From: Verrucomicrobiota bacterium
GTDB taxonomy: Bacteria; Verrucomicrobiota; Verrucomicrobiia; Chthoniobacterales; Terrimicrobiaceae
Length of the DNA stretch: 37,175 nucleotides
Reading direction: 5' to 3'
Assembly: GCA_018970255.1 (NCBI GenBank)
Contig: JAGWWS010000024.1
Location: forward strand, 1-37,175
The position numbers were made by a program, and so were the translations under genes. Position 1 is the first letter of the stretch. Every line of letters begins with the position of its first letter. Below the pieces are notes generated by a model that worked only from the letters and a program-made list of their open reading frames with translations, searched no databases and had not been told where the DNA came from. This document shows, piece by piece, positions 14,741 to 37,175 of the stretch.

Positions 14741-15468
14741 ACCCGATCCTCGTCATCGCCAAGCGCGAACTCGGCGGCTACTTCGCCTCGCCGGTCGCCT
14801 ATGTTTTCCTCGTGATCTACCTCCTCCTCGCCGGCTTCTTCACCTTCATGGTCGGCGGTTTTTTCGAGCGGGGCGCCGCCACACTGGATTCGTTCTTCGT
14901 CTGGCAGCCCTGGCTCTACCTGTTCCTCGTGCCGGCCGTCGGCATGCGCGTCTGGAGCGAGGAGCGCCGCATGGGAACGCTGGAACTCCTCTTCACCATG
15001 CCCGTCTCCCCGTGGCAGGCGATCATCGGGAAATTCCTCGCAGCATGGGCAGTCCTCGCCCTGGCCTTGCTCCTCACCTTCCCGCTGGTTTTCACGGTGA
15101 ACTACCTCGGCCGCCCGGACAATGGTGTCATCCTCGCCGGCTACCTTGGCAGCCTGCTCATGGCGGGGGCATACCTCGCCATTGCGTGCATGACCTCGGC
15201 CGCCACGCGCAACCAGGTCGTGAGCTTCATCCTCTCGGTCGTCGTTTGCCTTTTCCTCATCCTCTGCGGCTGGCCGCCCGTGACGAACCTCCTCGTCCAA
15301 TGGGCGAACCCCGCCGTGGTCGATGCCGTCGCGTCCTTCAGCGTCATGGCCCATTTCAATTCCATATCCAAGGGCGTGCTCGACTCGCGCGACCTCCTCT
15401 ATTTCGCGAGCGCGATCGTGTTCTGCCTCTTCGCCACCAGCGTCGTCCTCCGCACCCACCGCGGCTGA
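14737..15468 (+). CDS. ABC-2 type permease (GldF-like), copy 2
   Basis: The 243-aa protein has about six membrane helices. It begins MNPILVIAKRELGGYFASPV, a very typical GldF/ABC-2 N-terminus, and has the coupling motif WSEERRMGTLELLFTMPVSP (~73-92). The same position in copy 1 reads FAEEARSGTIEMLMTAPVRD, which shows the paralogy. It is coupled to the ATPase by a 4-bp overlap and followed after 13 bp by the GldG-like gene. It would form the exporter channel with an unknown substrate. Confidence 0.93.
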   Translation: MNPILVIAKRELGGYFASPVAYVFLVIYLLLAGFFTFMVGGFFERGAATLDSFFVWQPWLYLFLVPAVGMRVWSEERRMGTLELLFTMPVSPWQAIIGKFLAAWAVLALALLLTFPLVFTVNYLGRPDNGVILAGYLGSLLMAGAYLAIACMTSAATRNQVVSFILSVVVCLFLILCGWPPVTNLLVQWANPAVVDAVASFSVMAHFNSISKGVLDSRDLLYFASAIVFCLFATSVVLRTHRG

Positions 15469-15481
15469 GATTTCCCGCCGT

Positions 15482-17359: not shown

Positions 17360-17365
17360 CACCCA

Positions 17366-18541
17366 ATGAACCTCCGCACCGCACTCCTCCTCCTCGCCGC
17401 CGCCCTCGTCATCGGCGGCATCGGCCTCCGCTACTACGACCTCGAACAATTCAAAAAGGAAACCGCGCAAGCCGAACGCTTCCTGCCCGAATTCGACCTC
17501 AACTCCGTCGCCGAAATCACCGTCAAAACCAACAACTCCACCGCCACCCTCAAAAAAACCGAAACCGGCTGGACCGTCGCCGAACGCGAAAGCTACCCGG
17601 CCGACTTCGCCGCCGTGGGCGAAACCGTCCAGCGCCTCTGGGACTTCAAACCCGCCCAGGATGTCATCGCCGGCCCCTCGCAATTCGCCCGCCTCGAAAT
17701 CGTGGAACCAGATGGAAAAGCCGAAGGCGCCGGCACCCTCATCGACCTCAAGGACAAGGACGGCAAACGCCTCGCCGCCGTCGTCGTCGGCAAACAATCC
17801 TTCGGCCAGCCCGAACCCGACTCCCCCTTCCCGCCCGCGCCGAACGGCCGCTTCATCGTTGCCGCCGGTTCCGAAGGCCCCGTGGGCATCGCCGCCGAAG
17901 GCTTCGACCTCGTCCGCGACAAACCCGAAATGTGGCTCGACCGCGATTTCGTAAAACTCGGCGACATCAAATCCATCGCCCTCGATTCCCCCGACAAAAA
18001 ATGGCGCGTCTTCCGCGACGCCCCCGCCACCCCATGGAAACTCGACGGTGCCACCCCGAACGAATCCGCCGACAGCACGAAAATCGACCCCATCGCATCC
18101 ATGATGGCATCGCCCTCGTTCAACGACATCGCCCCCAAATCCACAGCCGACACCGCCTTCTCCGCCCCATCCACGCTCACGCTGGAAAACTTCGACGGCT
18201 TCACCGCCACCTACACGATCGGCGCCCGCGCCGGCGAGTCCTACCCCGCCAAAGTCGCCGTAGCCGCCAGCCTCCCCACCCAACGCACCCCCGCCGCCGA
18301 CGAAAACCCCGAAGACAAGGACCGCCTCGAAAAAGAATTCCAGGACAAACTCTCAAAACTCAAAGCCGACCTGGAAGGGACCAAAAAATTCGCCGGTCGC
18401 ATCTTCCTCCTCCCGGTCCAACCCATCGAAGCCGCCCTCAAACCCCGCGACCAACTCCTCGCCGCCCCCGCCCCAACCCCGACCCCATCTCCCTCCCCGT
18501 CCCCCAGCCCCACCCCAGTCCCCAAAAAGAAAAAGAACTAG
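17366..18541 (+). CDS. DUF4340-domain membrane-anchored protein, ABC cluster copy 2
   Basis: The 391-aa protein starts MNLRTALLLLAAALVIGGIG, a single N-terminal anchor. The next segment, FDLNSVAEITVKTNNSTATL (~40-59), followed by KTETGWTVAERESYPADF, is the typical DUF4340 beginning. Residues ~305-335 are charged and helical (DKDRLEKEFQDKLSKLKADL). The C-terminus is a Pro/Ser/Thr tail of PTPSPSPS type ending in KKKKN, which copy 1 lacks. It begins 6 bp after the GldG-like stop and ends the four-gene set. A REP-like hairpin with a following T5 run (18544-18575) may end transcription. Confidence 0.85.
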   Translation: MNLRTALLLLAAALVIGGIGLRYYDLEQFKKETAQAERFLPEFDLNSVAEITVKTNNSTATLKKTETGWTVAERESYPADFAAVGETVQRLWDFKPAQDVIAGPSQFARLEIVEPDGKAEGAGTLIDLKDKDGKRLAAVVVGKQSFGQPEPDSPFPPAPNGRFIVAAGSEGPVGIAAEGFDLVRDKPEMWLDRDFVKLGDIKSIALDSPDKKWRVFRDAPATPWKLDGATPNESADSTKIDPIASMMASPSFNDIAPKSTADTAFSAPSTLTLENFDGFTATYTIGARAGESYPAKVAVAASLPTQRTPAADENPEDKDRLEKEFQDKLSKLKADLEGTKKFAGRIFLLPVQPIEAALKPRDQLLAAPAPTPTPSPSPSPSPTPVPKKKKN

Positions 18542-22654: not shown

Positions 22655-25600
22655 TCAGGGGGCGATTTGGATGGTGAGGGACTGGGTGGCGTTGCCGCCG
22701 GGGGTGGTGGCGGTGAGGTTGGCGGTGAAGTTGCCGCCGGCTGTGGGCGTGCCGGTGATGAAGCGGGTGGTGGCGTTGAAGGTGAGGCCGGCAGGCAGGC
22801 CGGTGGCGCTGATGGTGGCGAGGGCAGCCAGGGGGCCGCTGCTGTTTGAGGCGGCTACATGGTGGCTGAAGGGCTGGCCGGCGCGGCCGGTGGCGGTGGG
22901 GCGGGAGACGAATGCAGGGGCGGGGAAATTCCTCACGGTGCGGAAGCCCGCGTCGTTGTATCCGCCGCCAGCTGCGGTGAGCTTGGCTTTCACATTGATG
23001 AAGGTGTCGAGTTTGTTGGTGGCGGGCGGGGTTTTATAGCTGCCACCCATGAGCGCGGGGTAGTGCGTGTCCGCGCCGAAGGTGTTGTCGTGGTATTGGC
23101 TGTCCCAAATCCATTCCCAGACGCTGCCGGCCATATCGAAAATCCCATTGGCGTTCGATGGAAGCTGGCGAACGGTGTGTTCGGGCGCATCCATGTTCCA
23201 AGTGGCGTTGTAGGAGGCGGTGTTGAGCGTGGCGTTGTTGGAAAACGCCCCGCCGTGGGAGAGCGTTCCGTTGCTTGTCCCGGCGCGGAGCCACTCGGCG
23301 GCGGTGGGGAGGCGGTAGCCGTTGGCGTTGGAATCGAGCGTGACGGAATCGGTGCGGTTTCCAGCCGGGTAGCCCTGCTTGTAGGTTTGGCCGCTGAGTT
23401 TGTAGGCGGGGGCGAGGCCGGCGAGTTCGCTCTTGGCGTTGCAGAATTTCAGGGCGTCGAACCAGCTTACGCCGACGATCGGGCGGGATTGCCAGTTCGT
23501 GCCGCCGTAATAGGTCGCATTGCCGAGGGCGTAGCCGGCCGGGAGGTTGTTGGCGACCTCCACCCACTCGCCGGCGGTGACCTCGGTCTGGCTGATGAGG
23601 AAGGCGGGGGTGGTGGCAGGCGGCGGATTGGTGGAGCCGCCGAAAAGCGCGCCTCCGATGCCCATGGCCAGGCGTGTGAGCAAGTCCGCCGACTGGGCTT
23701 GATAAAACTCGTTCAGGAAGGTCTGCAGGCGATTGTTGTAGGCGGTTCCGGAAATTGTTTGGCTGGATTGCTGGAAGGCCGTGAAGCCGCCGTCTTCGAT
23801 GAAGATGGTGAAGTTCGAGGTGAGGTTGCCGGCGGGGTTGGTGGCCATGGCGCGATAGGTGGCGTTGGCGCCTTGGAAACGGAGCGAGGGGATGCCCTCA
23901 ATGGAGGCGTTGGTGGTGATAGTGGCATTGACCGTGGCATTGATGCCGCCCGCGAGGAGGCTGGCGGAGTGGGTGGCATCGGTATCGGCGGAGATGGCCA
24001 GGCGTTCCAGGACTCTCATGAATGGCACGGGCTGGATGTTCCAGAAGGTGAATTCCGGTTGGTTGAATGAGGTGGGGGTTTTCCAAACCTTGAGCGGGAG
24101 CGTGGCCGTGGCGGTGCCTCCGTCGTTTTGCAGGGTGAGGATGACGGAGAAAGTGCCGGAAGCCGTGGGCGTGCCGGTGATGAGGCCGGTGGTGGCATTG
24201 ATCGAGAGGCCGGGCGGGAGGCCGCTGGCGGAGTAACTGGTTGGCGAGTTGCTGGCGGGCGGGGTGTAGTTTTGGGCCGAGTTGAGGATGTAATTGACCG
24301 GGGTGGCTGGCGGAGTGAGCACGGGCGGGGCGGGTTTGATCGAGATCGGGAGTGGGACGGCGGCGCTGGTGCCGGAGGCGTTCTCCACCGTGATGTTGGC
24401 GGTGAAATTGCGGGTGAGGCCGTTGAATCCGGTGTTCAACGGCGTGCCGGTGATGAGGCCCGTGGTGGCATTGATCGAGAGGCCGTCGGGCAGGCCGGTG
24501 GCGGCGTAGCTGCGGACATTTTTGGCGATGGGTTGGATGGTTGCGAAGGCGGCTCCGACTTGGCCGGATGCGGATGTGGCGGCCGTGCCGTTCGCGGTGA
24601 AGGTGAATCCACGGATGACGGGCGGGCCGCTGCGGACGATACGGAGGCCAACAGTGTTCGAGAACTGGGCGATGTTTTGCGGCTGGTTGAGGGCAGCGGC
24701 ATCCGAGCCCCATGCCCCGCCGAGGGCTGCGATCGCCTTGGTGGAATTTTCACCCTGCACGATTTCGGCGACATTTCCGTTCATATCGAAAATGCCGAGC
24801 GCGTTGGCGGCTTTCGAGCCGACCGGGAAGGTTCCCCCGGCGGCGACGCGGAGCGTCGTTGAAAGCGAATCGCCATCGAACAGCAACCCGCTGCCCCCGG
24901 CCAGGGTGTTGAAGAGCGGGAGGGTGGAGCCCGAGGAGTTGTCGCGGAAAACAGCGACCTCGGTGGCATTGTTGCTTCCGCTGTAGGTGGTGCTGGAGGA
25001 GTTGCCGCCGCGCATGGCCCACTCCCATTCCTCCTTGGTGGGGAGGCGGTAGCCGTTGGCATTGACGAGATCGGGCACGGGGTCGGCATCGCCGGTGACA
25101 TGGGACTCGCCTTTCCACAGGCCCGAGCGGTAGGGGCTCCGCGAATTGGATGCCACCCCTTCCTGGAACCGGGTGAGGAGTTTGTTGTTTTGGGCCTGCA
25201 GGACGGGCCACCTGTAAACCGGGGTGAGGCCGTTGAGTTCGCTGAGGGCGTTGCAGTATTTCGCGGCGTCCGAGTAGCTGAGCGAGTGCATCGGCAGGTC
25301 GGCGGTGGCGGCCGTGTTTGGCTGGCTGCCGGTGCCTTGGCCGAAGAACTCGAGCGTTTGGTTCACCGAGATGGTGTTGTTGGCGTCGCGGGCGAGGAGT
25401 TGGATTTTAGCGCGATACCAGGCGGGATCGGCATAGGGCGGGCGGAAACTCACGGTGAGGGTGAAGGCGGTGTTGTGGACCGTGTTGATCGAGGCGGTGG
25501 GGGCGTTGGTGCTGCCGTTGATGGAGACGCCGATGGCGGGCTGTCCGAATACGGCGAAGTCCGGCTTGCCGTCCGAGCTGAAAGAGAAAGAGAGGTTCTG

Positions 25601-28600
25601 GCCGGAGAGGTTCGTGATGGTGAAGTTCCGGGAGACCGTGGAGTTGGTGGTGGCTTGGCCGAGGTCGTAGGGGTTCCTGCCCGGGGTGGGCTCGGGCATG
25701 ATCCAGACTTTCGGCCACCCGGGGATGCTGCTGCCGTTCGAACTGAAGACGAGCGGCCTGCCCTGCAAGGCTTCATCGAAATCGTAATCGAGGTTGCGGC
25801 GCCTGGCGGCATCCACGGCATAGTCCCACTCGGCGCGGGTGACCTCGTATTTTCCGATGGAGAAGGGGTCGATGGTGCTGGATGCGGGGACGGAAACGAG
25901 CGAGCGGTCCCAGATGGCGAATGTGGCGGTGGAGTTTGCCGTCGCGGTGGGATTGGTTGCGGAGAGGGTGGCCGTGAAGTTGCCTGCGGCGGTCGGAATG
26001 CCCGAAACCACACCGGTGGAGGCATTGAGGGTGAGGCCGGGCGGCAGGCCGCTGGCGGAGTAGCCCGTCGGGGAGTTGGTCGCGTTGATTTGGTGGGAGA
26101 GGAAAATGCCCGTGAAGCCAACGGGGCTGGCCGGGGCGATCACGGGCGCGGGCGGCAGCGGGAGGATGCGGAGGAGGATGGGTGTGGTGGCGTTGCCGAA
26201 GGCGTTCGCCACCGTGATGTTCACCGTGAAATTTCCGGCCGTGGAACTGGTGCCGGTGAGGAGTCCCGTGGAGGAGAGCGAGAGGCCCTGCGGGAGGCCG
26301 GTGGCGGAATAGGAGGTCGGGGAATTCGTGGCGGCGAGTTGGTAGGAGACAGGTTTCGTGGCGTAGCCGATGGAGGGTGCCAAGTCACCGGAAACCACGG
26401 CGGCGGCAGTGTTGCGGGCGGGGCGCATGCCGCGGTGATCGCAGCCGACGCGGCTCCCGAAAGTTAGGTGGGAAATGCCGCCGAGGTTTTTTCCTAGCAT
26501 GTCGTTGCGGTTGTCCACGCGGAGGAGTCCGGATTGCCACGGGGCGTTCGGCACCAGCGTCACCTGCTCGCCGGAGCGGTAGTGGCCGCCGCGCTCGCGG
26601 CGGTAGCGCAGAAAGCCATCGGTGTCGGCGTAGAAATCGAAGCACCACTCGGAGACTCCGCCCGAAAAATCGTAGAGGCCGAGTTCATTCGGGAGTTTCA
26701 GCCCGACCGGGTTTTTGGCCCCCCAAGAGTTGCCATGATACCACGCCACGGCGTTCAGGTTGTTGCCGCCGCTGTAGGTGGAATTTTGCGAGAGGGTGCC
26801 GCCGCGCGCGGCCCATTCCCACTCGGCCTCGGTGGGCAGGCGGTAGCCGTTGGCGGCGGGGTCGGCCACGGGCTCGCCGTCGGTGCGCGACAGGTTGCCG
26901 GAGCCGGTTTTGAACACGGCGCCATCCAAGTAATAAACCGGGGCAAGACCCTCCTTCTGGCTGCGGGCGTTGCACCATTTGGCGGCGTCATACCAGGTGA
27001 AGTTGTTGGCGGGTTGGAGGGGGGCGGTGGCGGCGTTCCGGGCCACGGTCGTGGAGTTGTCCGAGAAATCGTAGCCGTTTGCGTCGCCCCAGGAACGGAT
27101 GGCGTTCCACTCGACCCAGGTGGTTTCGAATTTGGAGATTTGGAAGCGGCCGACACCTGTGCCATTGAGTGTGTTCGAGGTGCGGAGGGTGCCGTTCTCG
27201 ACTTCCACGAAGCCGGAGGAGACCGAGAGGTTCACCGTGGCGTTGCCCGAGCCGGCGGGGTTCGAGGCGGTGACGGTGAAAGTGTAATTCCCCGGCGCGG
27301 GCATTCCCGAGAGGAGGCCGGAGGTGGCGTTGAGGGAGACGGCGGCGGGCAGGCCGGAGGCGGAGTAGCCGGTCGGGGAGTTGGTGGCTGTGATTTGGTA
27401 GGCGAGGGCCGGGTGGGTGGCGATCGAGGTCGGACTGGTGATGGCGGGCTTGTCGAAAACGGCGATGGAGAGCGTGGAAGCGGTGGTGGCCCCGTTCGAG
27501 GCGGTGGTGCCGATCGAGTAATTGCCCGCTTGGGCGGTGCCGGTGAGCGCGCCGGTGGTGACGTTCAGCGAGAGCCAGGATGGCAGTGCGGTGGAATTTC
27601 CAAATGCGAGGGGGGTGAGGGAAACGGACTGGTTGTTCGTGGCGGCGAGGATGTGGGTGAAGGGTTGTCCGGCGTAACCGATGGCTGTGGCATTCGAGGT
27701 GAAGGCGGGGGCCACGGGCAGGACGCGGATTTGGATTGTCGCGGGAATGGATGTTCCAGCGGGGTTCGAGGCGGTGGCGTTCACCGTGAAGTTGCCGATC
27801 TGGGCGGGAGCGGTGCCGGAGAGCAGGCCTGTGGCGGTATTGAGCGAGAGCCAGGATGGCAGGGCGGTGGAATTCCCGTAGCCGGTGGCATTCGTGGCTT
27901 GGATCTGGTGTGAAAACGCAGTCCCGACCGTGGTGGTGAGCGGGGGCGGGGCGGAAACCACGGGGCGGCCGAGGATGGTGATCGAGAGGGTGCCGAAGCC
28001 GGTGGAGCCATTCGAGGCGGTGAGGTTGGCTATGGTGGTTTCGGACGGGGCGTCGGCGGAACCTGCAACGATTCCCGAGACGACCCCTGTGGTGACGTTC
28101 AGCGAGAGGCCGGCGGGCAAGCCGGTGGCGGAGTAGCTGGACGGTGAGTTGGTGGCATTGAGGGTGAAAGTGAAATTTGCGCCGCGGTAGGCGGTAGTGA
28201 CCGAAGGATTGGTGAAGATCGGGTTGAGCGGGAGGACACGGATGAGCAGCGACCCTTGCGCGGAACCGATCGAATTCGAGGCGGTGAGGTTGGCCGTGAA
28301 GTTCCCGACTTGGGAGGGGGTGCCGGAGAGCAGGCCGGTTGTGGCGTTGAGGCTGAGCCCGGCGGGCAGGCCGGTGGTGGCGGTGAGGTTGTTGGAATTG
28401 AAAACGGGGACGGCGAATGTGATCGGTTGGCCGACCGTTACCGAGGCGGTGATGTTGGCAGCGAAGGCCGGGGCGGCAGCGGCGGATGGGAGGGCGAAGC
28501 GCAAGCCGACGAAGTCGTCGCGGGATTCGGGAGTTAACGCCGAGAAGGTTCGTTGCTCGCCTTGGGCCAGTGTTTCCCCGGAACCATTCAGCGCGCCGCC

Positions 28601-31600
28601 AACCGAGCCACCCTCAGGGAACGAGCCGTTTTTGGTGACCCATTCCCGCACATTTCCGCTCATGTCGAAAATGCCGAGGGCGTTCGGGAGCTTCAGGCCG
28701 CCGGGTTGGGCGCGGCCCTCGGTGGTTTTCAAGTCCACATTGAACCAGGCCACATCGGCCATGGTGTTGCCGCCGCTGTAGGTGAAGTTCGATGTGGTGC
28801 TCGCGCCGCGGGCGGCCCAGAACCATTCGCGGTGGTCGGGCAGGCGGTAGCCATTGGCGCCGGGAAGGGCGACGAAGCCTTCGACGAAATACGATTCATA
28901 AACGCTGATTTGCCTGTAGCCGATCCCGCCGGTCTTCCAAACACTGCCATCCTGTTTGCGGTAGGCGGGCACCAAGCCTTCCATCTCGCTGCGGGCGTTG
29001 CACCATTTGATGGCGTCGTTCCAAGAAACATTCCGGGCGGCGCGGTTGACCTGGCTGCTCTGGGGCAGGTCGGTGTAGCCCCGGGAACCCGCCCAGGAGC
29101 GGACCGCATCCCACTGGGCACCGGATAGCTCGAGGCGGCCGATGCGGAAGGCGGCGGTATTGTTCCCGGCCGGGACTTCCACGAACGCGGAGAGGATGGA
29201 CAGTGTGAGATTGGCCGAGGTGGTGCCGGCGCGGTTGGCGGCGGTAACGCGCACGGTGAAGTTGCCAGGCGCAGAGGGCGTGCCAGAAATGGCGCCGGTG
29301 GTGGAGTTGAGCGTGAGGCCGGCCGGGAGGGCCGTGGAATTTCCGAACGCCAGCGGGACCGTGTCGCCGTTGGTGGCATTGAGCGTGAGGCTGAAGGGGA
29401 TTTCCTGGTGGGCGGTGGCGGAGAGGTTGCCGGTGAAAGCGGGCAGTGGCACGAGGGAGCCGAAATTGAAGGCCACAGTGGCATTGCCCGTGCCGCCGGG
29501 ATTGGTGGCAAAGAGGGTGACGGAGAAATTGCCCGGCGCGGCGGGCGTGCCGGAGATGACCCCCGTGGCAGGATCGAGCACAAGCCCTTCGGGCAGCGCG
29601 GATGTGGAGTAGCGCTGGGGATTGTTGGTGGCGTTGATCGTATAGCTGGTCGCCACATTGGCATTGCCCGGTTGGGGTGCGGTGGCCGCCACAACCGGCG
29701 GGGCGGGCTTTGGCGCGATCGTGAAGACCACATCGGCGGTTTTCGATCCGAACTCGTTCGAGGCGGCGAGGATGGCGCTGATGTTTCCAGACTGGGTGGG
29801 GATGCCCGAAATGGTGCCGGTTTGCGGATCGATTTCGAGGCCGACCGGCAGGCCTTGGGCGCTGAAGGTGGCGGGTGAGGCCGAGGTGACATTGCGGCTG
29901 AACGCGTAGCCGAAAGCGCCGGTGAACACGCCGCCGGGCAGGGAAAAATCGGGCACCCCGGAGGCGATGGCAAGGGTAAGCGTGGCTGTGGCTTTTTTGG
30001 CATTGGACGCTTCCAGCGTGACGGGGTAGTTGCCGGCCACGAGCGGGGTGGCGGAGATGAGGCCGGTGGCGGCGTTGAGCGAGAGACCGCGTGGCAGGCC
30101 AGTGGCTTTGTAGGAGGTGGGGCTGTTCGCCGCAGTGATCTGGTATTGGAAAGTCTGGCCCTGTTTGGCGGAGGCCGAGAGGTTGCCGGTGATGACGGGG
30201 GGCTCCTGGCCGATGACGGTGATGGTGAGCGGGCGGGAAATGGTTGCACCACCTTTCGAAGCCTCGACCACCACCGTGTGGGCAGCCTCGAATGTCGGTG
30301 TGCCGCTGATGATCCCGCTGGTGGCGTTCATGGAGAGCCCGGCCGGCAGCGACCTGGCCCTGAAAACCACCCCCGTGGTGTTGGTGGCTATTGTGGCGGT
30401 GAAAGGTTGGTTCAGCGTGGCATTGAACGAAGCCGTGCCCGTGAACGCGAGGGAGAGGTTGCGCGCCAAACGGATGCCGGTGCCGGCTTCCGACCAGCTG
30501 GAGCTATCCCGGAAATCGACGGTTCCACCCTCGTAAATAGGAGAAGTGGCCCCTCCGCCCGTCCAAGACCACCACCCGCGGACATAGTCCAACAATTCCC
30601 AGACATTTCCATTCATGTCGTGGATGCCGAGTTCATTGGCGGCCTTTGAGCCGACGGGCTGGGGTTGGTTGTTGCTGTTGCCGGCGTGCCACGCCACCTC
30701 CGAGGCATTGTTGCTGCCGCTGTAGGCGAAGTTTTTTGAGAGCTGTCCGCCGCGCATGGCCCATTCCCACTCGCTGCGCATGGGGAGGCGATAGCCGTTG
30801 GCGGCCGGTTGCGTTAAATCATACATGGAATATCCGGCAAAATCCCAAGGCACGAGTTGAGTCCCCGTTTTGAAAACCGGAGTGCCGGTGGCATTGCGGG
30901 TGTAAACCGGCGTGAGGCCTTCCATCTGGCTCTTGGCATTGCACCATTTCATGGCGGTGAGAATGTCCACAGATTGCACCGGACGGCCGCCGCTTCCCGC
31001 TACCGCCGCCAAATCGGTATATCCATTCGATGCAGCCCAATCGGCGACATATTTCCACTCGTCCCAAGTCACCTCGGTGCGGCCGATTTGGAAATCCGCC
31101 ACGGCGGTGACATTCCCGCCATAGCTACTTAAATCGACGGAGCCATTGCCCACGGGGACGAGTTCCGTGATGCTGCGGGCCACGCGGAAGCCGACCATCG
31201 TGTCCTTCCATTCGTGCGGCCACTGATCTATATTAAAAGCACCGCCGCCGCGGTAGGAGAGCATGGCGAAAGGATCCCTCCAGGTATTGAAGCCGCCGCC
31301 GCGGAGCCGCCGCCCGCCATTGAGTAGATCCCAGCACCACTCCCAGACATTTCCGCTCATGTCGTGGATGCCAAGTTCGTTGGCAAGTTTGGTGGCGACG
31401 GCCTGGGTGCCGACCCACCTGTTGAACGCGGAATTATAGATTAGGAATCCCGGCGAATTGTCGAAGGTCCATGCGACATCGGCCGGGTTGTTGCCGCCGC
31501 TGTAGGTGTAGTTTTTCGTGAGGAGTCCGCCGCGGGCGGCGAAGTCCCACTCGGCCTCGGTGGGGAGACGGTAGCCGTTGGCACCACCGCGGAGCGAGAC

Positions 31601-34600
31601 CGTGGTGACATTGCCGGTTTTGTAGGTGGCGTTGCCATTGAGGTAGACGGGGACAAGGCCCTCGCGCTCGCTGCGGGCATTGCACCATTTGACCACCTCG
31701 AACCAGTTCACATTCCGCACAGGGTGCTCGGCGGCGGTGCCGGCGCCGCTGTTCGCGAGGTCCGCGTAGCCGTTGGAGACCGCCCAGTTCCTGACATCCT
31801 GCCACCCGGCCCAAGTGACTTCGGTGGTGCCGATGCGGAAGCCGGCCACGGCGTTGCCCGAAAGCCCCGAGGCCGGCGGCAATGTGCCGCCTTGGACAAA
31901 GGCAAGCTCGTCCCTAAGCGAGAGGTTGAGCGTGCCGGTGGCGGTGCCGTTCGCAGTGGTGGCGGAAATGGCGACCGAGTAATTCCCGGCGAAGGCGGGC
32001 GTGCCGGTGATGGCTCCGGTGGTGGCGTTGAGGGTGAGGCCGGTCGGAAGGCCGCTGGCGCTGTAGGTGGGCGTGCCGCCGCTGGCGGAGAGGTTAGCGG
32101 CGAAGGAGAGACCGGCGGTGCCATTGGCCGTGGATGCGCTGGTGATGAGCGGGCCCGCAGGCTGGACGACAATGATCAGGTCTGCCGCAACGGAGTGGTC
32201 GGCATTGATGGCTTGGATGGTGGCGGGATAGCTGCCGGCGGTGGTGGCGTTGCCGGAGAGGCGACCCGTGGTGGAATTGAAGGTCAGGCCGGCAGGCAGG
32301 CCGGTGGCATTGTAGGAAACCGCATCCGTGGCGGTGAAGGTTTGGTTGACCGTGGCTGCGGGCAGTTGGACTTCGAGGGATGTGGGGAAATTGCTGAACA
32401 CGGGCACCGGCTCCACGACGCGGATGGCGAGCGTTTCGGTATTGTTGGCGCTTTGGCTGTTGGAAACGCGGATCGTCGCATTTGTGGTGCCGCGCGTGGT
32501 CGGCGTGCCGGTAATCCGTCCATCGGCAAACGAGAGCCCTGCGGGAAGCCCGGTGGCATTCGAGGTTTCAAAGTTTCTTCCACCAATCGCGTAGATGAAT
32601 GGCACGCCCCTGGTGGCATTGGCCGAGAGGGCCGTGGTGATCCAAGGGAGTTCGGAATTGCGGGCCAGCCGGAAGCCGATGGTCGGGTGGATGGATGCCC
32701 CGGTGGTCCCGGCGATGGAAAGGGAGCTGTCCTGGGTGGACCAACCGCCCCCCATGGCGGTGGATGGGCCGGTGAGTTCCCACGCATTGCCATTCATGTC
32801 GTAAAGTCCGAGCTCGTTCGGGGTCTTGCCCGCAACGGGGCGTGATTGGCCGCCGCTGTTGGCCGCAAACCAGGCAACGGCGTCCAGCGAGTTGCCACCG
32901 CTGTAGGTGAAGTTGCCGCCTTGCAGGCCGCCGCGGGCCGCCCATGCCCACTCCGCCTCGTTCGGCAAGCGGTATCCGTTGGCTGCGGGATCGGCGGAAG
33001 GCGACGAACTTCCCGTCCGCAACACGGCGCCGTTGACCTTGTAAACCGGCTCCAACCCGTCGCGCTCGCTCTTGGCGTTGCACCATTTCACCACATTGAT
33101 CCATGAAACACTGGTTGCGGGATTCAAGGGGCCGGTGGCGGTGGCATTGCCGATCGAGTAGCCGTTCTTCAACGCCCAATCGCGCACTTCGTCCCAATCC
33201 GCCCCGGTGGTTTCGGTGCGGGCGATGCGGAATGGCGGCACACGCGTGCCGTAACGGCTGCCGCCGGCGACATCGACGAACGGTTCGAGGAACGAGAGGG
33301 ACAGTGTGGCCGTGGCGTTTTGTTGGAGGTTTTGGTTCGCGGCGGTGAGGGTGACGGTGAAATTCCCGGCCGTGGCGGGCGTTCCCGAGATCACACCCGT
33401 GGTGGAATTGATGGTAAGCCCGGCGGGCAGTCCGCTGGCCGTGTAGGTGGTGGTGGAGTTCCAAGTGGTGGCATTGACCGTGTAGCGGAATCCGGCGCCG
33501 GACATGCTGGTCGCGCCGAGGGGGCCATTGATGGCGGGCGCGGGCGGCTGGGCGGCGACTGCGATTTTCAACCGGGTGGTGAAATTGCCGGAGGCGTTGC
33601 TGGCGGTGATATTCGCGGTGAAGGTTCCGTTTACCGACGGGGTGCCGGAGACAAGGCCCGTGGCGGCATCGTAGGACAGGCCGCCGGGCAAGCCGCTGAT
33701 GGAGATTACCGCAGGGTTTTCGGCGGGCACCAGCAAGGCGAACGCCAATGGATAACCTTGCATGCCGGTGGCGGACAGGTTGGCCGCGAGGAACGGCAGG
33801 GCAATGTTCCGGGCCGGGCGGAAGCCAAGGTTGTTCGTGCGGTCGCCGGGATTGGCCGTTCCGTTGGTGGACAAGAGCGGGTCGACATCCACGTAACTGC
33901 CGCCGCGGATTTGACCGGTCTCCTGAAGGAGTTCCCAAACATTTCCGGTCATGTCGAAAACACCGAGTTCGTTGGCTGCCTTGCCCCCGACCGGCAGCGT
34001 GCCGCCGCGCACCCAATTCGGGAAATTGGCACTGCCTTGGTTGTAAAGATTGTCGAGTTTCACGGGGGCGGCGTGGGAGTTTTGGCGATACCATCCCGCC
34101 GCGTTTGCGTCGTTGCTTCCGCTGTAGGTGTATCCAAGGCCCGCCAATCCGCCCCGCGCGGCCCAATCCCACTCGGCCGCCGTGGGCAGGCGGTAGCCAT
34201 TGGCCAGCGGGTCGATCGCGGGCGCGGCCTCGCCCGAGGTGTAGGTGGCGCCATTGAGGATGTAGGCGGGCAATAGCCCTTCCATCTCGGACTTGGCATT
34301 GCACCACTTCGCGGCGTCATACCAATTGATGTTCCGCACCGGGTTGTCGGCGGCGCTGCCGTTGCCCACAGCAAAATCGTAGGTTCTGTTCCCGGCGAGC
34401 GCCCAGGTCCGGACCCTCTGCCATTCGTCCCAGCGCACTTCGGTCCTGGCGATCTCGAACCCGGCAACCTTGCGACCGGCGGGATCGTCCCAAGTGTTGT
34501 TCACGCCACGCACGGCGACCATGGGTTCCCTGATGGTGAAAGTGAAATTGGCGCTCGCGGCGGAGTCCGCGTTCGAGGCCGTGACAGTGGCATTGAAGTT

Positions 34601-37175
34601 TCCCGCCGCCGTCGGGCTTCCGGAGAAAACGCCTGTCGTGGCATTCAAGGAAACACCCGGCGGCAACTGGGTGGCGTTCACGCTGTAGGCGGTCGGTTGG
34701 TTCGTGGCATTGATGGAGAACGACAGCGGGCTCCCTAGCGAGGCGGCCAGCGAAAGCGGTCCCTGGAAGGAAATCTGTGCCGTGTTCCTTGCGACGCGGA
34801 ATCCGACCCCGAACGAGCGTTCGAGCGCGGAGGCGGATGGCACGCCATAGTCGTCCAAGGCAATCGCGACAGGCGCGGAGTTCCAATTCCCGCCCCAAAC
34901 TTTTGCCGAATCCCCTGCGGCATCGGGGCCGGTGATGTAATCCCAAACCCACTCGCCGACATTGCCGGTGAGGTCGAACAAGCCAAGGCTGTTGGGCGTT
35001 TTTGAGCCCACCGGCCGTGTTCCGCGGGCGTCCAGGATTCCGGGATCGGCACCGGGCGAATTGCCAAGGTGCACGGCCACCGGGTTGGCATCGTTCCCGC
35101 CGCTGTAGGCGAAGGACTCGTTGGCCCCGCCTTTGGATGCCCACCAGAATTCATACCGGGTCGGCAAGCGGTAGCCGTTGGCGGAGGCGTTCACCCCGAT
35201 CGCATCCGGCCTGGGTTGCCCCGACCGGAAGGCTTGCGAGTTCACCGAATAAAAAGGCTGCAACCCTTCGCGCTCGCTGCGGGCGTTGCACCACTTGATC
35301 ACATCGAAGAAGTTGACGCCCCGCACCGGATGGCTATCGGCACTGCCTTCGCCCACCGCGAGTTCGTAGCCATTGGCAATCGCCCACTCGCGCACCGCCC
35401 GCCATTCGCCGAAAGTCGTCTCCGCCCTCGCCAAGCGGAATGCCGGCAACGCTCCCACGTTATACACGCCATCGACGTAAAACTGCCCACCCCCCAAAGC
35501 AGGGTATCCATATTGCCCGGGATCGAAGGCAGGCACATCGCGAAGCGGGGCCAAAACGGAAACGCCCAGCGTGGCGTTCCCGGTGCCAACGCTATTTGTG
35601 GCGTTAAGGGAAACCGTGGCATTGCCGCTGGCGGGCGGGGTTCCGGAAAGTTCGCCGGTGGTGGCGTTGAGGCCCAGCCAGGCGGGCAGGCCGCTGGCGC
35701 CAAAGGACGACGGAAGGAAAGTGGCGGGAATCCGGTAGCTGAACGGCACGCCCGCGAATGCGAAAACCGTGGACGGACCGGTGATGGCGGGCCGGTCCAA
35801 GACGCCTTGGATGCGGAGCGTCGCGCGCGAAGTGCCCATGGAGTTTGTCGCCGTGATGTTCACCGAAAAATTCCCGGCGGTCTGCGGCGTGCCCGAGAGG
35901 GCGCCGGTTGTGGAATTGATTGTGATCCAGGAGGGGATTTCCGTGGGATTTTCGATCGAGAAGGAGCGCGGGGCGTTCGTGGCGTTAAGAGAAAAGCTGA
36001 ACGCCTCCCCCACATTCACCACCCGCACCGCGGAGAGGTCCAGGCCGGGCGGGGCGGAGGGCGCCGCGTATTCATCGTAAAGGGCCACAACCTCGGATGC
36101 GGAAAGCCCGCGGTCGTAAATCCTGGCTTCGTCGAATGTGCCGAAAGGTTGGTTCCCTCCGTTGTTGCCGATTTTCGTCAGCGGCACCGGCACCACGGCC
36201 GCCGCCGTGCCCATGAGCGAGCCATCCACATAGAATTTCGTCTCCCCGCCCGAAGCGACCGCAGCGAGGTGGCGCCATCCCGCGCCGATCGCGCCCAAAT
36301 TCAACCCCGAGGAGAAGAATCCGTCGTTGTAAACGCCAAGGTTCCCTGCACCGTCGGCAATGACATGGTGGCGGCTTCCCGCCCCCCAGGCAAAGGTGCG
36401 CCAGTCATTGATCGATGGAATCGGGAAGCGAATCCATGCGGCAACCGTGTAGTTTCCCGAACCCGGGGGAAGGACCGGCGAATCAAGCGACAAATGCTTC
36501 GCTCCATCCGGACACGAAACGGCCCCGCCCGTGTAGCCATCAGCGATGAGCGTGGCGCCGTTTGAAAGCGTGGCATTCGGCCCGCTGCCGGAGACATCGG
36601 CTGTGGAATTCCCATCGAAGCGGTAATGCGCCACCAGGCCCGGGATTTTTCCGGTGGCCGCCCCGTAAACAGGAAGCTTCGCCACGGCACCCCGGGAGTC
36701 GTTGGAAAGGATCTGGATCTCGGAACTGAACGCGCCCGCCCGAGAAGGCGCAAAGTAAACATCGATGCTTCGCGAAGTCCCCGCCGCAACGACAAAATTT
36801 CCCGACAAGTTCCCCGAAAACCCGGGCGGGAAGACAATGCTCTGGACGGTCAAATTCCCCGAACCGGTGTTGGCGACCTGCATTGGCCTCACCACAAATT
36901 GGCCGATGGCAAGATTGCCGAAGGTGAGATTGCCCGAAGCAGAAATAAGCCGAGTCCCCTCGCCCACGCCGCTCACTGCGATGGTCTGATTCCCTGAAGT
37001 GGCGTTGGAGTTGACCGTCAGATTCCCGCTATAGCTTTGCGGCGCCGTAGGCTTAAAGGACACGGTCACATTTTGCGTGGCGTTGGGCGCGATGGATCCA
37101 CTCCAATTTCCGCTGAAACCCGCCGGATAACTGATCCCGGTGACACTCAGGTTTCCGCTCCCGCTGTTCCGGATC
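22655..37175 (-). CDS. Giant multidomain surface-type protein: ASH, LamG, nine FGE-like and ~23 He_PIG domains (partial, start outside window)
   Basis: The frame is open from the right edge to a TGA at 22655, at least 4,839 residues. The first possible start in the window is a GTG at 37069, but ASH-domain sequence continues upstream of it, so the true start lies beyond the edge. Visible order: two ASH/HYDIN-like domains, one LamG domain, then blocks of Ig-like He_PIG domains alternating with nine SUMF1/FGE-like domains (A to I). Each FGE-like unit has a 'TE.tw.eW..v..W' start, a WCNAKSE-like core, an ANGYRLPTEAEWEWAARGG segment, a DMNGNVWE segment and a GFRxARN end. It ends in a He_PIG domain (SLTIQIAP) with no sorting signal or membrane anchor. 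A secreted or surface location is expected from the domains; no signal peptide is visible because the N-terminus is missing. Very high Asn, Thr, Ala and Ser content and many N-X-S/T sequons are unusual. Confidence 0.93.
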   Translation of the reverse strand, partial: IRNSGSGNLSVTGISYPAGFSGNWSGSIAPNATQNVTVSFKPTAPQSYSGNLTVNSNATSGNQTIAVSGVGEGTRLISASGNLTFGNLAIGQFVVRPMQVANTGSGNLTVQSIVFPPGFSGNLSGNFVVAAGTSRSIDVYFAPSRAGAFSSEIQILSNDSRGAVAKLPVYGAATGKIPGLVAHYRFDGNSTADVSGSGPNATLSNGATLIADGYTGGAVSCPDGAKHLSLDSPVLPPGSGNYTVAAWIRFPIPSINDWRTFAWGAGSRHHVIADGAGNLGVYNDGFFSSGLNLGAIGAGWRHLAAVASGGETKFYVDGSLMGTAAAVVPVPLTKIGNNGGNQPFGTFDEARIYDRGLSASEVVALYDEYAAPSAPPGLDLSAVRVVNVGEAFSFSLNATNAPRSFSIENPTEIPSWITINSTTGALSGTPQTAGNFSVNITATNSMGTSRATLRIQGVLDRPAITGPSTVFAFAGVPFSYRIPATFLPSSFGASGLPAWLGLNATTGELSGTPPASGNATVSLNATNSVGTGNATLGVSVLAPLRDVPAFDPGQYGYPALGGGQFYVDGVYNVGALPAFRLARAETTFGEWRAVREWAIANGYELAVGEGSADSHPVRGVNFFDVIKWCNARSEREGLQPFYSVNSQAFRSGQPRPDAIGVNASANGYRLPTRYEFWWASKGGANESFAYSGGNDANPVAVHLGNSPGADPGILDARGTRPVGSKTPNSLGLFDLTGNVGEWVWDYITGPDAAGDSAKVWGGNWNSAPVAIALDDYGVPSASALERSFGVGFRVARNTAQISFQGPLSLAASLGSPLSFSINATNQPTAYSVNATQLPPGVSLNATTGVFSGSPTAAGNFNATVTASNADSAASANFTFTIREPMVAVRGVNNTWDDPAGRKVAGFEIARTEVRWDEWQRVRTWALAGNRTYDFAVGNGSAADNPVRNINWYDAAKWCNAKSEMEGLLPAYILNGATYTSGEAAPAIDPLANGYRLPTAAEWDWAARGGLAGLGYTYSGSNDANAAGWYRQNSHAAPVKLDNLYNQGSANFPNWVRGGTLPVGGKAANELGVFDMTGNVWELLQETGQIRGGSYVDVDPLLSTNGTANPGDRTNNLGFRPARNIALPFLAANLSATGMQGYPLAFALLVPAENPAVISISGLPGGLSYDAATGLVSGTPSVNGTFTANITASNASGNFTTRLKIAVAAQPPAPAINGPLGATSMSGAGFRYTVNATTWNSTTTYTASGLPAGLTINSTTGVISGTPATAGNFTVTLTAANQNLQQNATATLSLSFLEPFVDVAGGSRYGTRVPPFRIARTETTGADWDEVRDWALKNGYSIGNATATGPLNPATSVSWINVVKWCNAKSERDGLEPVYKVNGAVLRTGSSSPSADPAANGYRLPNEAEWAWAARGGLQGGNFTYSGGNSLDAVAWFAANSGGQSRPVAGKTPNELGLYDMNGNAWELTGPSTAMGGGWSTQDSSLSIAGTTGASIHPTIGFRLARNSELPWITTALSANATRGVPFIYAIGGRNFETSNATGLPAGLSFADGRITGTPTTRGTTNATIRVSNSQSANNTETLAIRVVEPVPVFSNFPTSLEVQLPAATVNQTFTATDAVSYNATGLPAGLTFNSTTGRLSGNATTAGSYPATIQAINADHSVAADLIIVVQPAGPLITSASTANGTAGLSFAANLSASGGTPTYSASGLPTGLTLNATTGAITGTPAFAGNYSVAISATTANGTATGTLNLSLRDELAFVQGGTLPPASGLSGNAVAGFRIGTTEVTWAGWQDVRNWAVSNGYADLANSGAGTAAEHPVRNVNWFEVVKWCNARSEREGLVPVYLNGNATYKTGNVTTVSLRGGANGYRLPTEAEWDFAARGGLLTKNYTYSGGNNPADVAWTFDNSPGFLIYNSAFNRWVGTQAVATKLANELGIHDMSGNVWEWCWDLLNGGRRLRGGGFNTWRDPFAMLSYRGGGAFNIDQWPHEWKDTMVGFRVARSITELVPVGNGSVDLSSYGGNVTAVADFQIGRTEVTWDEWKYVADWAASNGYTDLAAVAGSGGRPVQSVDILTAMKWCNAKSQMEGLTPVYTRNATGTPVFKTGTQLVPWDFAGYSMYDLTQPAANGYRLPMRSEWEWAMRGGQLSKNFAYSGSNNASEVAWHAGNSNNQPQPVGSKAANELGIHDMNGNVWELLDYVRGWWSWTGGGATSPIYEGGTVDFRDSSSWSEAGTGIRLARNLSLAFTGTASFNATLNQPFTATIATNTTGVVFRARSLPAGLSMNATSGIISGTPTFEAAHTVVVEASKGGATISRPLTITVIGQEPPVITGNLSASAKQGQTFQYQITAANSPTSYKATGLPRGLSLNAATGLISATPLVAGNYPVTLEASNAKKATATLTLAIASGVPDFSLPGGVFTGAFGYAFSRNVTSASPATFSAQGLPVGLEIDPQTGTISGIPTQSGNISAILAASNEFGSKTADVVFTIAPKPAPPVVAATAPQPGNANVATSYTINATNNPQRYSTSALPEGLVLDPATGVISGTPAAPGNFSVTLFATNPGGTGNATVAFNFGSLVPLPAFTGNLSATAHQEIPFSLTLNATNGDTVPLAFGNSTALPAGLTLNSTTGAISGTPSAPGNFTVRVTAANRAGTTSANLTLSILSAFVEVPAGNNTAAFRIGRLELSGAQWDAVRSWAGSRGYTDLPQSSQVNRAARNVSWNDAIKWCNARSEMEGLVPAYRKQDGSVWKTGGIGYRQISVYESYFVEGFVALPGANGYRLPDHREWFWAARGASTTSNFTYSGGNTMADVAWFNVDLKTTEGRAQPGGLKLPNALGIFDMSGNVREWVTKNGSFPEGGSVGGALNGSGETLAQGEQRTFSALTPESRDDFVGLRFALPSAAAAPAFAANITASVTVGQPITFAVPVFNSNNLTATTGLPAGLSLNATTGLLSGTPSQVGNFTANLTASNSIGSAQGSLLIRVLPLNPIFTNPSVTTAYRGANFTFTLNATNSPSSYSATGLPAGLSLNVTTGVVSGIVAGSADAPSETTIANLTASNGSTGFGTLSITILGRPVVSAPPPLTTTVGTAFSHQIQATNATGYGNSTALPSWLSLNTATGLLSGTAPAQIGNFTVNATASNPAGTSIPATIQIRVLPVAPAFTSNATAIGYAGQPFTHILAATNNQSVSLTPLAFGNSTALPSWLSLNVTTGALTGTAQAGNYSIGTTASNGATTASTLSIAVFDKPAITSPTSIATHPALAYQITATNSPTGYSASGLPAAVSLNATSGLLSGMPAPGNYTFTVTASNPAGSGNATVNLSVSSGFVEVENGTLRTSNTLNGTGVGRFQISKFETTWVEWNAIRSWGDANGYDFSDNSTTVARNAATAPLQPANNFTWYDAAKWCNARSQKEGLAPVYYLDGAVFKTGSGNLSRTDGEPVADPAANGYRLPTEAEWEWAARGGTLSQNSTYSGGNNLNAVAWYHGNSWGAKNPVGLKLPNELGLYDFSGGVSEWCFDFYADTDGFLRYRRERGGHYRSGEQVTLVPNAPWQSGLLRVDNRNDMLGKNLGGISHLTFGSRVGCDHRGMRPARNTAAAVVSGDLAPSIGYATKPVSYQLAATNSPTSYSATGLPQGLSLSSTGLLTGTSSTAGNFTVNITVANAFGNATTPILLRILPLPPAPVIAPASPVGFTGIFLSHQINATNSPTGYSASGLPPGLTLNASTGVVSGIPTAAGNFTATLSATNPTATANSTATFAIWDRSLVSVPASSTIDPFSIGKYEVTRAEWDYAVDAARRRNLDYDFDEALQGRPLVFSSNGSSIPGWPKVWIMPEPTPGRNPYDLGQATTNSTVSRNFTITNLSGQNLSFSFSSDGKPDFAVFGQPAIGVSINGSTNAPTASINTVHNTAFTLTVSFRPPYADPAWYRAKIQLLARDANNTISVNQTLEFFGQGTGSQPNTAATADLPMHSLSYSDAAKYCNALSELNGLTPVYRWPVLQAQNNKLLTRFQEGVASNSRSPYRSGLWKGESHVTGDADPVPDLVNANGYRLPTKEEWEWAMRGGNSSSTTYSGSNNATEVAVFRDNSSGSTLPLFNTLAGGSGLLFDGDSLSTTLRVAAGGTFPVGSKAANALGIFDMNGNVAEIVQGENSTKAIAALGGAWGSDAAALNQPQNIAQFSNTVGLRIVRSGPPVIRGFTFTANGTAATSASGQVGAAFATIQPIAKNVRSYAATGLPDGLSINATTGLITGTPLNTGFNGLTRNFTANITVENASGTSAAVPLPISIKPAPPVLTPPATPVNYILNSAQNYTPPASNSPTSYSASGLPPGLSINATTGLITGTPTASGTFSVILTLQNDGGTATATLPLKVWKTPTSFNQPEFTFWNIQPVPFMRVLERLAISADTDATHSASLLAGGINATVNATITTNASIEGIPSLRFQGANATYRAMATNPAGNLTSNFTIFIEDGGFTAFQQSSQTISGTAYNNRLQTFLNEFYQAQSADLLTRLAMGIGGALFGGSTNPPPATTPAFLISQTEVTAGEWVEVANNLPAGYALGNATYYGGTNWQSRPIVGVSWFDALKFCNAKSELAGLAPAYKLSGQTYKQGYPAGNRTDSVTLDSNANGYRLPTAAEWLRAGTSNGTLSHGGAFSNNATLNTASYNATWNMDAPEHTVRQLPSNANGIFDMAGSVWEWIWDSQYHDNTFGADTHYPALMGGSYKTPPATNKLDTFINVKAKLTAAGGGYNDAGFRTVRNFPAPAFVSRPTATGRAGQPFSHHVAASNSSGPLAALATISATGLPAGLTFNATTRFITGTPTAGGNFTANLTATTPGGNATQSLTIQIAP
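22925..23610 (-). other. FGE-like domain I (C-terminal)
   Basis: FLISQTEVTAGEWVEVANN opens it, then FCNAKSELAGLAPAYKLS, ANGYRLPTAAEWLRAGTSN, IFDMAGSVWEWIWDSQ and GFRTVRN. The core Trp of WCNA is replaced by Phe. It is followed by the last He_PIG domain. Confidence 0.85.
23610..24060 (-). other. Atypical Ig-like and helical linker before FGE-like domain I
   Basis: This stretch lacks the He_PIG core. It has a VNATITTNASIEGIPSLRF beta part, then a probable helix (RLQTFLNEFYQAQSADLLTR) that runs into a hydrophobic LAMGIGGALFGG segment and a Pro-rich joint. It is the only clearly helical, hydrophobic section of the visible giant protein. Confidence 0.6.
24620..25905 (-). other. FGE-like domain H with a nested beta domain
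   Basis: FSIGKYEVTRAEWDYAVDA opens it, but the YCNALSELNGLTPVYRWP core comes only after ~165 extra residues. The extra part (~25330-25680) reads like an ASH/HYDIN Ig-like domain (TVSRNFTITNLSGQN, LTVSFRPPYADPAWYRAKIQ). After it the domain resumes with ANGYRLPTKEEWEWAMRGG, IFDMNGNVAEIVQGE and GLRIVRS. Confidence 0.82.
26400..27215 (-). other. FGE-like domain G
   Basis: FQISKFETTWVEWNAIRSW opens it, then WCNARSQKEGLAPVYYLD, ANGYRLPTEAEWEWAARGG, LYDFSGGVSEWCFDFYAD and GMRPARN. It has the longest C-terminal loop of the uninterrupted copies, including VGCDHRGMRP. Its Cys residues do not form the FGE pair. Confidence 0.85.
28490..29190 (-). other. FGE-like domain F
   Basis: FRIGRLELSGAQWDAVRSW opens it, then WCNARSEMEGLVPAYRKQ, ANGYRLPDHREWFWAARGA and IFDMSGNVREWVTKNG. 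It ends GLRFALP rather than the usual GFRxARN. It lies between the two five-copy He_PIG blocks. Confidence 0.85.
30450..31155 (-). other. FGE-like domain E
   Basis: FQIGRTEVTWDEWKYVADW opens it, then WCNAKSQMEGLTPVYTRN, ANGYRLPMRSEWEWAMRGG, IHDMNGNVWELLDYVRG and GIRLARN. It is directly joined to domain D, giving the only FGE-FGE pair in the visible protein. Confidence 0.87.
31160..31912 (-). other. FGE-like domain D
   Basis: FRIGTTEVTWAGWQDVRNW opens it, then WCNARSEREGLVPVYLNG, ANGYRLPTEAEWDFAARGG, IHDMSGNVWEWCWDLLNGG and GFRVARS. It runs straight into domain E with no Ig-like spacer. The Cys in WEWCWD is not at the FGE catalytic position. Confidence 0.87.
32645..33285 (-). other. FGE-like domain C
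   Basis: FRIARTETTGADWDEVRDW opens it, then WCNAKSERDGLEPVYKVN, ANGYRLPNEAEWAWAARGG, LYDMNGNAWELTGPS and GFRLARN. It is the shortest of the nine (about 210 residues) and has no catalytic cysteines. Confidence 0.87.
33800..34526 (-). other. FGE-like domain B
   Basis: FEIARTEVRWDEWQRVRTW opens it, with WCNAKSEMEGLLPAYILN, ANGYRLPTAAEWDWAARGG and VFDMTGNVWELLQET following and GFRPARN at the end. It lacks catalytic cysteines. One He_PIG domain precedes it and two follow. Confidence 0.87.
34770..35530 (-). other. FGE-like domain A
   Basis: RLARAETTFGEWRAVREW opens the domain. WCNARSEREGLQPFYSVN, SANGYRLPTRYEFWWASKGG and LFDLTGNVGEWVWDY follow, and GVGFRVARN closes it. The usual WEWAARGG reads FWWASKGG here. 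No C-terminal cysteines are present. Confidence 0.85.
36060..36650 (-). other. LamG/concanavalin-A-like domain of the giant protein
   Basis: It starts GLVAHYRFDGNSTADVSGSG and contains YTVAAWIRFP, WRHLAAVASGGETKFYVDGS and FGTFDEARIYDRGLSASEV. All are hallmark phrases of bacterial LamG-type jelly-roll domains that bind glycans or proteins. It is the only such domain in the visible part. Confidence 0.88.
36650..37175 (-). other. Two ASH/HYDIN-like domains of the giant protein
   Basis: Two repeats share the phrases NSGSGNLSVTGISYPAGFSG and NTGSGNLTVQSIVFPPGFSG, each followed by a 'F.P......g.l.v.SN' strand (VTVSFKPTAPQSYSGNLTV and IDVYFAPSRAGAFSSEIQIL). This is the layout of HYDIN/ASPM-type Ig-like domains often found in bacterial surface proteins. 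The first repeat begins before the window edge. Confidence 0.75.

Follow-up and report, generated by a model that had tools for sequence, protein, structure and literature searches.

A giant Verrucomicrobiota reading frame with nine FGE-like domains on He_PIG spacers: a candidate multivalent binding fibre

In this study we report a giant open reading frame in which nine FGE-like domains, each without the cysteine pair of the formylglycine-generating enzyme, are held in an array of 23 Ig-like He_PIG domains and have diverged strongly from one another. The reading that we favour, with confidence somewhat above even, is that of a secreted multivalent giant fibre, whose Ig spacers hold nine non-catalytic FGE-fold binding beads. 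The window (the whole stretch of DNA analysed, 37,175 bases) is an entire contig, G000:C18, of a genome of 2.56 Mb in 88 contigs that is 93.4% complete. In these 2.56 Mb a 16S match was not found, and the host of the gene is an uncultured bacterium, probably of freshwater and, to judge by the labels of loci encoding relatives of the bead, probably near Chthoniobacterales.

Results

Extent and integrity of the giant frame

A sequence-only reading of this DNA had described a frame of at least 4,839 residues, and the count is borne out: 4839 codons on the minus strand run without a stop until the contig end, which cuts the 5' end of the gene, the true start probably lying off the contig (Table 1). 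From the earliest start codon within the contig, the predicted protein has 4804 aa. A collapse of near-identical repeats inside the frame, the artefact that the same reading had named as its own possible undoing, is judged unlikely, since the direct DNA repeats reported within the gene reach 60-84% identity with their reference copies and the FGE copies, compared as protein, are 34-45% identical to copy 4. The latter values also agree with its statement that the nine copies are diverged from each other.

The missing N-terminus was sought by comparing the last 201 bases of the window with the genome, where they match themselves and one other place, at the beginning of contig C58 (its first 36 bases). 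Over 37 bases, the start of C58 and the end of the window agree at 34 positions, and this inexact overlap suggests that the two ends are more likely neighbouring repeat copies, between which some sequence is lost, than simply overlapping. On the minus strand of C58:1-189 (locus L223) we found a start codon, a signal-peptide-like stretch (read by eye) and the first part of an ASH domain. This domain is matched weakly by choice_anch_D (23.9 bits), continues up to the contig edge and ends in nearly the same residues with which the window frame begins. The edge of C58 is thus a likely N-terminus of the giant gene, and its signal-peptide-like start suggests that the giant protein is probably secreted. 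Signal-peptide-like starts, again read by eye, are present in the He_PIG and FGE proteins of contigs C85 and C59 of the same genome. Directly upstream of the C58 start (L223 ~240-650, minus strand) lies a short frame that by eye resembles a signal peptide followed by part of a He_PIG domain and by an RCC1-like stretch, and that may be the remnant of another surface protein; a 137-aa frame from this region, possibly in a different reading frame, has no Pfam match.

Domain architecture

Profile searches of the genome DNA place PF03781 (FGE-sulfatase) at nine separate sites of the frame, with 63.4-106.6 bits against a cut-off of 23.3, and He_PIG (PF05345) at 23 separate sites, all over the curated cut-off. 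On the protein, PF03781 matches in nine stretches (E 1e-195) and He_PIG in 23 (688.7 bits, E 2.4e-212), and at such scores chance is no issue. The nine SUMF1/FGE-like domains and the roughly 23 He_PIG domains first recognized by sequence alone were therefore recovered in full, a SUMF1-family domain being found at every one of the nine sites, and so was the lead of ASH and LamG domains, with ASH-type matches within aa 1-172 and LamG_3 at aa 224-362 by Pfam.

From the N-terminal side the order is partial ASH, ASH, LamG, two He_PIG, FGE1, one He_PIG, FGE2, two He_PIG, FGE3, three He_PIG, FGE4, FGE5, five He_PIG, FGE6, five He_PIG, FGE7, two He_PIG, the split FGE8, two He_PIG, 138 residues, FGE9, one He_PIG and the stop. 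The description of FGE domains spaced by He_PIG domains thus holds for the array as an alternating whole, but FGE5 directly adjoins FGE4 without a spacer, and FGE8 is split in the alignment of copies by an insertion, which weakly matches choice_anch_D (23.2 bits, E 1.5e-4; family cut-off 45). The structural model of the FGE8 region is poor (mean pLDDT 66.6). Among the Pfam and NCBIfam matches listed for the giant protein there is no anchor or sorting domain.

Table 1. Features of the giant frame, in window coordinates
Feature	Position	Strand	Basis or remark
Giant open frame, 4839 codons	22655..37174	-	5' end cut by contig end
ASH/choice-of-anchor D domain 1, partial	36995..37174	-	cut by contig end; Pfam match
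ASH/choice-of-anchor D domain 2	36695..36988	-	Pfam match
LamG_3 (concanavalin A-like), aa 224-362	36089..36505	-	Pfam match
He_PIG 1	35819..36031	-	profile search
He_PIG 2	35555..35791	-	profile search
FGE-like domain 1, aa 553-797	34784..35518	-	profile search and alignment
He_PIG 3	34532..34753	-	profile search
FGE-like domain 2, aa 884-1123	33806..34525	-	profile search and alignment
He_PIG 4	33560..33709	-	profile search
He_PIG 5	33299..33538	-	profile search
FGE-like domain 3, aa 1294-1506	32657..33295	-	profile search and alignment
He_PIG 6	32417..32602	-	profile search
He_PIG 7	32180..32404	-	profile search
He_PIG 8, N-terminal part of folded model	31922..32152	-	profile search and model
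FGE-like domain 4, aa 1753-2001, modelled with He_PIG 8	31172..31918	-	profile search, alignment, model
FGE-like domain 5, aa 2002-2239	30458..31171	-	profile search and alignment
He_PIG 9	30215..30436	-	profile search
He_PIG 10	29966..30202	-	profile search
He_PIG 11	29717..29887	-	profile search
He_PIG 12	29471..29701	-	profile search
He_PIG 13	29198..29428	-	profile search
FGE-like domain 6, aa 2661-2896	28487..29194	-	profile search and alignment
He_PIG 14	28244..28471	-	profile search
He_PIG 15	27974..28222	-	profile search
He_PIG 16	27722..27964	-	profile search
He_PIG 17	27467..27709	-	profile search
He_PIG 18	27221..27412	-	profile search
FGE-like domain 7, aa 3316-3588	26411..27229	-	profile search and alignment
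He_PIG 19	26183..26383	-	profile search
He_PIG 20	25916..26086	-	profile search
FGE-like domain 8, aa 3756-4182, split by insertion	24629..25909	-	profile search and alignment
ASH/choice-of-anchor D-like stretch inside FGE8	25436..25696	-	23.2 bits, below cut-off 45
He_PIG 21	24356..24583	-	profile search
He_PIG 22	24092..24340	-	profile search
138 aa between He_PIG 22 and FGE9	23678..24091	-	no He_PIG/FGE match listed
FGE-like domain 9, aa 4500-4749	22928..23677	-	profile search and alignment
He_PIG 23, protein end directly after	22664..22918	-	profile search

Cysteine loss and fold of the bead domain

In the alignment of the nine copies, 31 columns are invariant. In FGE, the cysteine pair of the GGSxxCxxxxC region binds copper. 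This pair (GGSFLCHPxYC) is kept in both of the ordinary FGEs of the same genome that were aligned and is absent, at both aligned places, from all nine copies, which are probably not formylglycine enzymes for this reason; an array of active FGEs was rejected on the same ground. Among 66 aligned relatives the motif was found by pattern in 43, none of which has the pair (0/43), so that its loss looks like a trait of the wider bead family.

In a sequence-profile search of solved structures, CarF (5aoh, E 7.4e-42) and the variable protein 1 of Treponema denticola (2y3c, E 1e-37) lead by a wide margin over PorK/GldK chains (E about 1e-16), which are followed by SUMF2 and FGE; the 5aoh file names the CarF chain 'Spore coat protein CotH'. 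He_PIG 8 and FGE4 were modelled together with a mean pLDDT of 93.2 and a pTM of 0.88, giving a well-predicted fold for a single bead and its spacer. Foldseek ranks 5aoh first for this model and 2y3c second (E 1.2e-17), followed by SUMF2 and FGE, and PorK/GldK also match by fold. The C-type-lectin-like character attributed earlier to the domains is supported, as regards the fold, by these nearest neighbours. Shorter fold matches of ~80-150 columns, which we assume to cover the Ig half of the model, are headed by the putative alpha-galactosidases 4ogz and 4nzj and then by SraP (4m02, 4m00, 4m03). In the viral library, the bead is matched best by a Microcystis phage protein of sulfatase-modifying-factor-like type. 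For the whole protein, the best NCBIfam match is the Fibrobacter-type lipoprotein family TIGR02171, in eight stretches (301.3 bits, E 1.4e-89) but below its cut-off of 544.35, and TIGR03525 (T9SS PorK/GldK) matches in nine stretches with 227 bits, below its cut-off of 350.

Divergence and origin of the nine copies

Residues 201-249 (copy 4 numbering) are the least alike among the nine copies, with a mean pairwise identity of 0.24 as compared with 0.33, 0.47 and 0.46 in the remaining three segments. With FGE8 left out of the alignment, the other eight copies are less alike in all four segments (0.26-0.49) than are 66 relatives from other genomes (0.34-0.57), which were chosen by likeness to the query and are therefore biased towards each other. 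Since the relatives, too, are least alike in the last segment (0.34), the variability of this segment appears to be a family trait and is no proof of selected binding faces.

In a tree of 60 rows the nine copies are scattered with weak support (six changes), and constraining them to stand together gives a likelihood better by 11.4 (p-AU 0.69); without FGE8 and FGE9 the p-AU for a single clade is 0.67. The end branches of the copies are long in this tree (1.0-2.9 against a median of 0.53), which may reflect relaxed constraint. A quick tree of 137 rows has five changes, of which well-supported branches force two or more, and speaks against a single clade, the long branches making both trees unsure. 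Duplication within the gene followed by fast divergence is thus allowed by the trees. The array had earlier been called old and maintained, which the data do not support: a single clade is not rejected, the constrained tree scores better, and a lineage-specific gene whose copies diverged fast once duplicated would fit as well as age. A comparable frame is also missing among the matches listed for the 15 other genomes of the genus and, at a strict cut, for the order, a weak absence given how broken the assemblies are.

Rarity among relatives

Of 244 loci examined, 22 lay inside the window's own contig and were removed; the other 222, once split matches had been merged and frames contained in longer ones removed, gave 159 distinct frames that match a profile of the nine copies at least once. 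One copy is present in 135 of these, two in 21, three in two and four in one; a locus or contig end truncates 23 of the 159, and since fragmented metagenome assemblies break long genes, the copy numbers are lower bounds. A PF03781 search of 147 genomes (best matches) was kept out of these counts. The sequence-only reading had held that SUMF1 domains normally occur once or twice per protein, as they do in 156 of the 159 frames; the maximum among these frames is four, against the five or more for which it proposed a search.

Within the genus (16 genomes, its own included), the longest of the other frames with listed matches has 3439 residues, is cut by a contig end and combines two FGE-like copies with He_PIG, RCC1, FG-GAP, LamG and C-type lectin domains. 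Wider searches used strict E-value cuts and scored at most 12 (order) or 7 (phylum) candidates per genome, so that weaker arrays could escape them. In the order, 26 of 213 genomes (own included) have a match at E 1e-60, with more than three close copies in no other listed frame; in the phylum sample it is five of 387 (own included) at E 1e-58, with more than two copies in no other listed frame. By label, as sorted by eye for 80 of 519 loci, the bead relatives comprise 69 of Verrucomicrobiota type (e.g. Spartobacteria, Chthoniobacteraceae, Opitutales), nine Ignavibacteriae, one Acidobacteria and one Bacteroidota. Nine beads per chain therefore exceed any relative examined, and the component parts are all known.

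Related proteins and genomic neighbourhood

The proteins of C85 (1575 aa) and C59 (1626 aa) in the same genome have both spacer and bead families in common with the giant. Frames of the genus share the FGE-like domains, the Pfam check for He_PIG among them covering G003:C17. The FGE-like frames of the same genome and genus carry one or two beads, often at the extreme C-terminus, whereas the nine of the giant are internal and a He_PIG domain comes last. A similar layout is that of an Opitutia frame (L110 1150-5817, from contig PXDN01000124.1), 1556 aa of which are visible before the contig end leaves it open, with at least four FGE-like domains alternating with an Ig-like spacer that is of ASH/HYDIN type rather than He_PIG. 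The bead-and-spacer layout thus occurs elsewhere with a different spacer.

Further large frames of 2407, 2292 and 1844 aa with choice_anch_D or He_PIG matches are present on G000:C65, C28 and C70, and the organism appears from its sequence to encode several large Ig-type proteins. Neighbouring short frames at L010 (G000:C38, 2-1438) and L011 (G000:C53, 1-1070), some broken at contig ends, fuse an N-terminal stretch, presumably SAM-like, to an FGE-like domain and form a family of small FGE-like proteins. Beside them at L010 (1556-4372, minus strand) lies a frame of 938 aa that by eye resembles an autotransporter made up of a repeated passenger and a terminal barrel. Elsewhere in the window, 212-2875 encodes an Hsp70-like protein with DUF3731 at its C-terminus, and 5636-8424 and 15323-18541 hold separate pairs of ABC_transp_aux and DUF4340 genes, one per strand.

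Conservation of the neighbourhood was dropped as a line of evidence, because gene order is not kept and the comparison is little informative. Of 14 further window genes sought in eight stretches around the helicase (90-93% identical), none recurs at high identity; weak matches were to an ABC ATPase (26-30%, two stretches) and a DUF4340 protein (39%, one stretch), and at E 1e-10 no match was obtained with the last 439 residues of the giant protein.

Discussion

The binder reading is suggested by the combination of Ig spacers, a fold of ligand-binding type without the enzyme cysteines, a LamG domain near the start and the divergence of the beads. We infer a protein that would be exported through the signal-peptide-like start on C58 and would form an elongated fibre, along which 23 cadherin-like Ig spacers could hold nine non-catalytic FGE-fold domains. 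In this way a single molecule might display as many as nine C-type-lectin-like binding faces that have diverged from one another, LamG near the N-terminus would add a further binding module, and the role of the protein would lie in multivalent contact with extracellular ligands such as a polysaccharide, a particle or a cell surface rather than in chemistry. Adhesion, capture or predation, roles that the sequence-only reading had put forward with reserve, stay conjectural. Secreted bacterial proteins often contain FGE-like domains that lack the catalytic cysteines, with few ligands established for them. Adhesins with cadherin-like Ig domains such as SraP resemble the Ig-like part of the giant by sequence and fold, but SraP is not known to carry FGE-like domains. 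As a separate line, an N-glycosylated adhesin was considered and set aside: the giant protein has 158 N-x-S/T sequons where 68 are expected from composition, but the count of the reversed motif is likewise raised (120), and a match to STT3 was not found.

The main rival is that the beads are purely structural, a rigid mass that stiffens or widens the fibre of a matrix, sheath or stalk protein and has no ligand of its own. We regard this as unlikely, though a serious alternative, since the FGE fold does occur in the PorK/GldK ring complex, the core motifs are conserved while the C-terminal part drifts, and the end branches of the copies are long. The 31 invariant columns indicate a constrained fold, although they are silent on ligands, and the nearest structures, CarF and the Treponema variable protein 1, are not known to serve as ring scaffolds. 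Chemistry of another kind, with the nine domains as FGE-superfamily enzymes of EgtB, PvdO or OvoA type, is highly improbable; the corresponding NCBIfam models do match the whole protein, but their scores fall far below the cut-offs (PvdO 126.3 of 500, EgtB 65.2 of 360, OvoA 54.7 of 400) and the FGE cysteine pair is missing from every bead. A comparably slight chance is left to separate genes stitched together by the assembly: the contig breaks within the gene, in an ASH domain with a near-copy at the end of another contig, but the domains stand in order in a single uninterrupted frame of 4839 codons, and the internal repeats reported reach 84% identity at most.

Two further proposals concern what such a fibre would do and how its beads came to vary. 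A predation or contact weapon that seizes other cells, as proposed for giant genes of other PVC lineages, is improbable but has a precedent, in that an excerpt of PMC12057145 takes giant extracellular PVC proteins with carbohydrate-binding domains as suggesting predation; the 18 Pfam families listed for the giant frame include no hydrolase, toxin or membrane-active domain. Giant surface proteins in lactic acid bacteria are the subject of an excerpt of PMC12863079, and a multi-FGE giant protein is not named among the matches listed in open-licence PMC text. Beads that are targets of a diversity-generating retroelement are the least probable reading of all. It would suit the likeness of the fold to Treponema variable protein 1 and the naming of sulfatase-modifying-factor proteins among such targets in a passage of PMC6642488, but the copies differ over their entire length, and the 93.4% complete genome has no match to reverse transcriptase (PF00078), for which reason retroelement-driven variation of the beads was rejected.

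The binding fibre thus remains our preferred reading, and its parts recall known systems to differing degrees. FGE/SUMF1 and SUMF2 have the PF03781 family and fold in common with the beads and differ in the cysteine pair that the beads lack. CarF and the Treponema variable protein 1, the best matches of the bead by both sequence profile and fold, are short chains of 273 and 294 residues, respectively, as compared with the 4839 codons of the giant, and the latter protein is diversified by a retroelement. In working, the giant may be compared with the macrophage mannose receptor, a eukaryotic protein with tandem C-type lectin domains in a single chain and no spacer array of Ig domains; the analogy lies in the many C-type-lectin-like domains per chain, and we claim no kinship of sequence. 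More tentatively, and with distinct doubt on our part, the nine beads could bind different ligands, which would make the protein a recognition fibre with several specificities, the analogue in bacteria of tandem C-type-lectin receptors; it would have arisen by duplication within the gene and been diversified without a retroelement.

Nine natural variants on one scaffold in one chain would offer a compact set for comparison. If it is true that the beads bind different things, the fold would represent a lectin-like toolkit outside retroelement systems.
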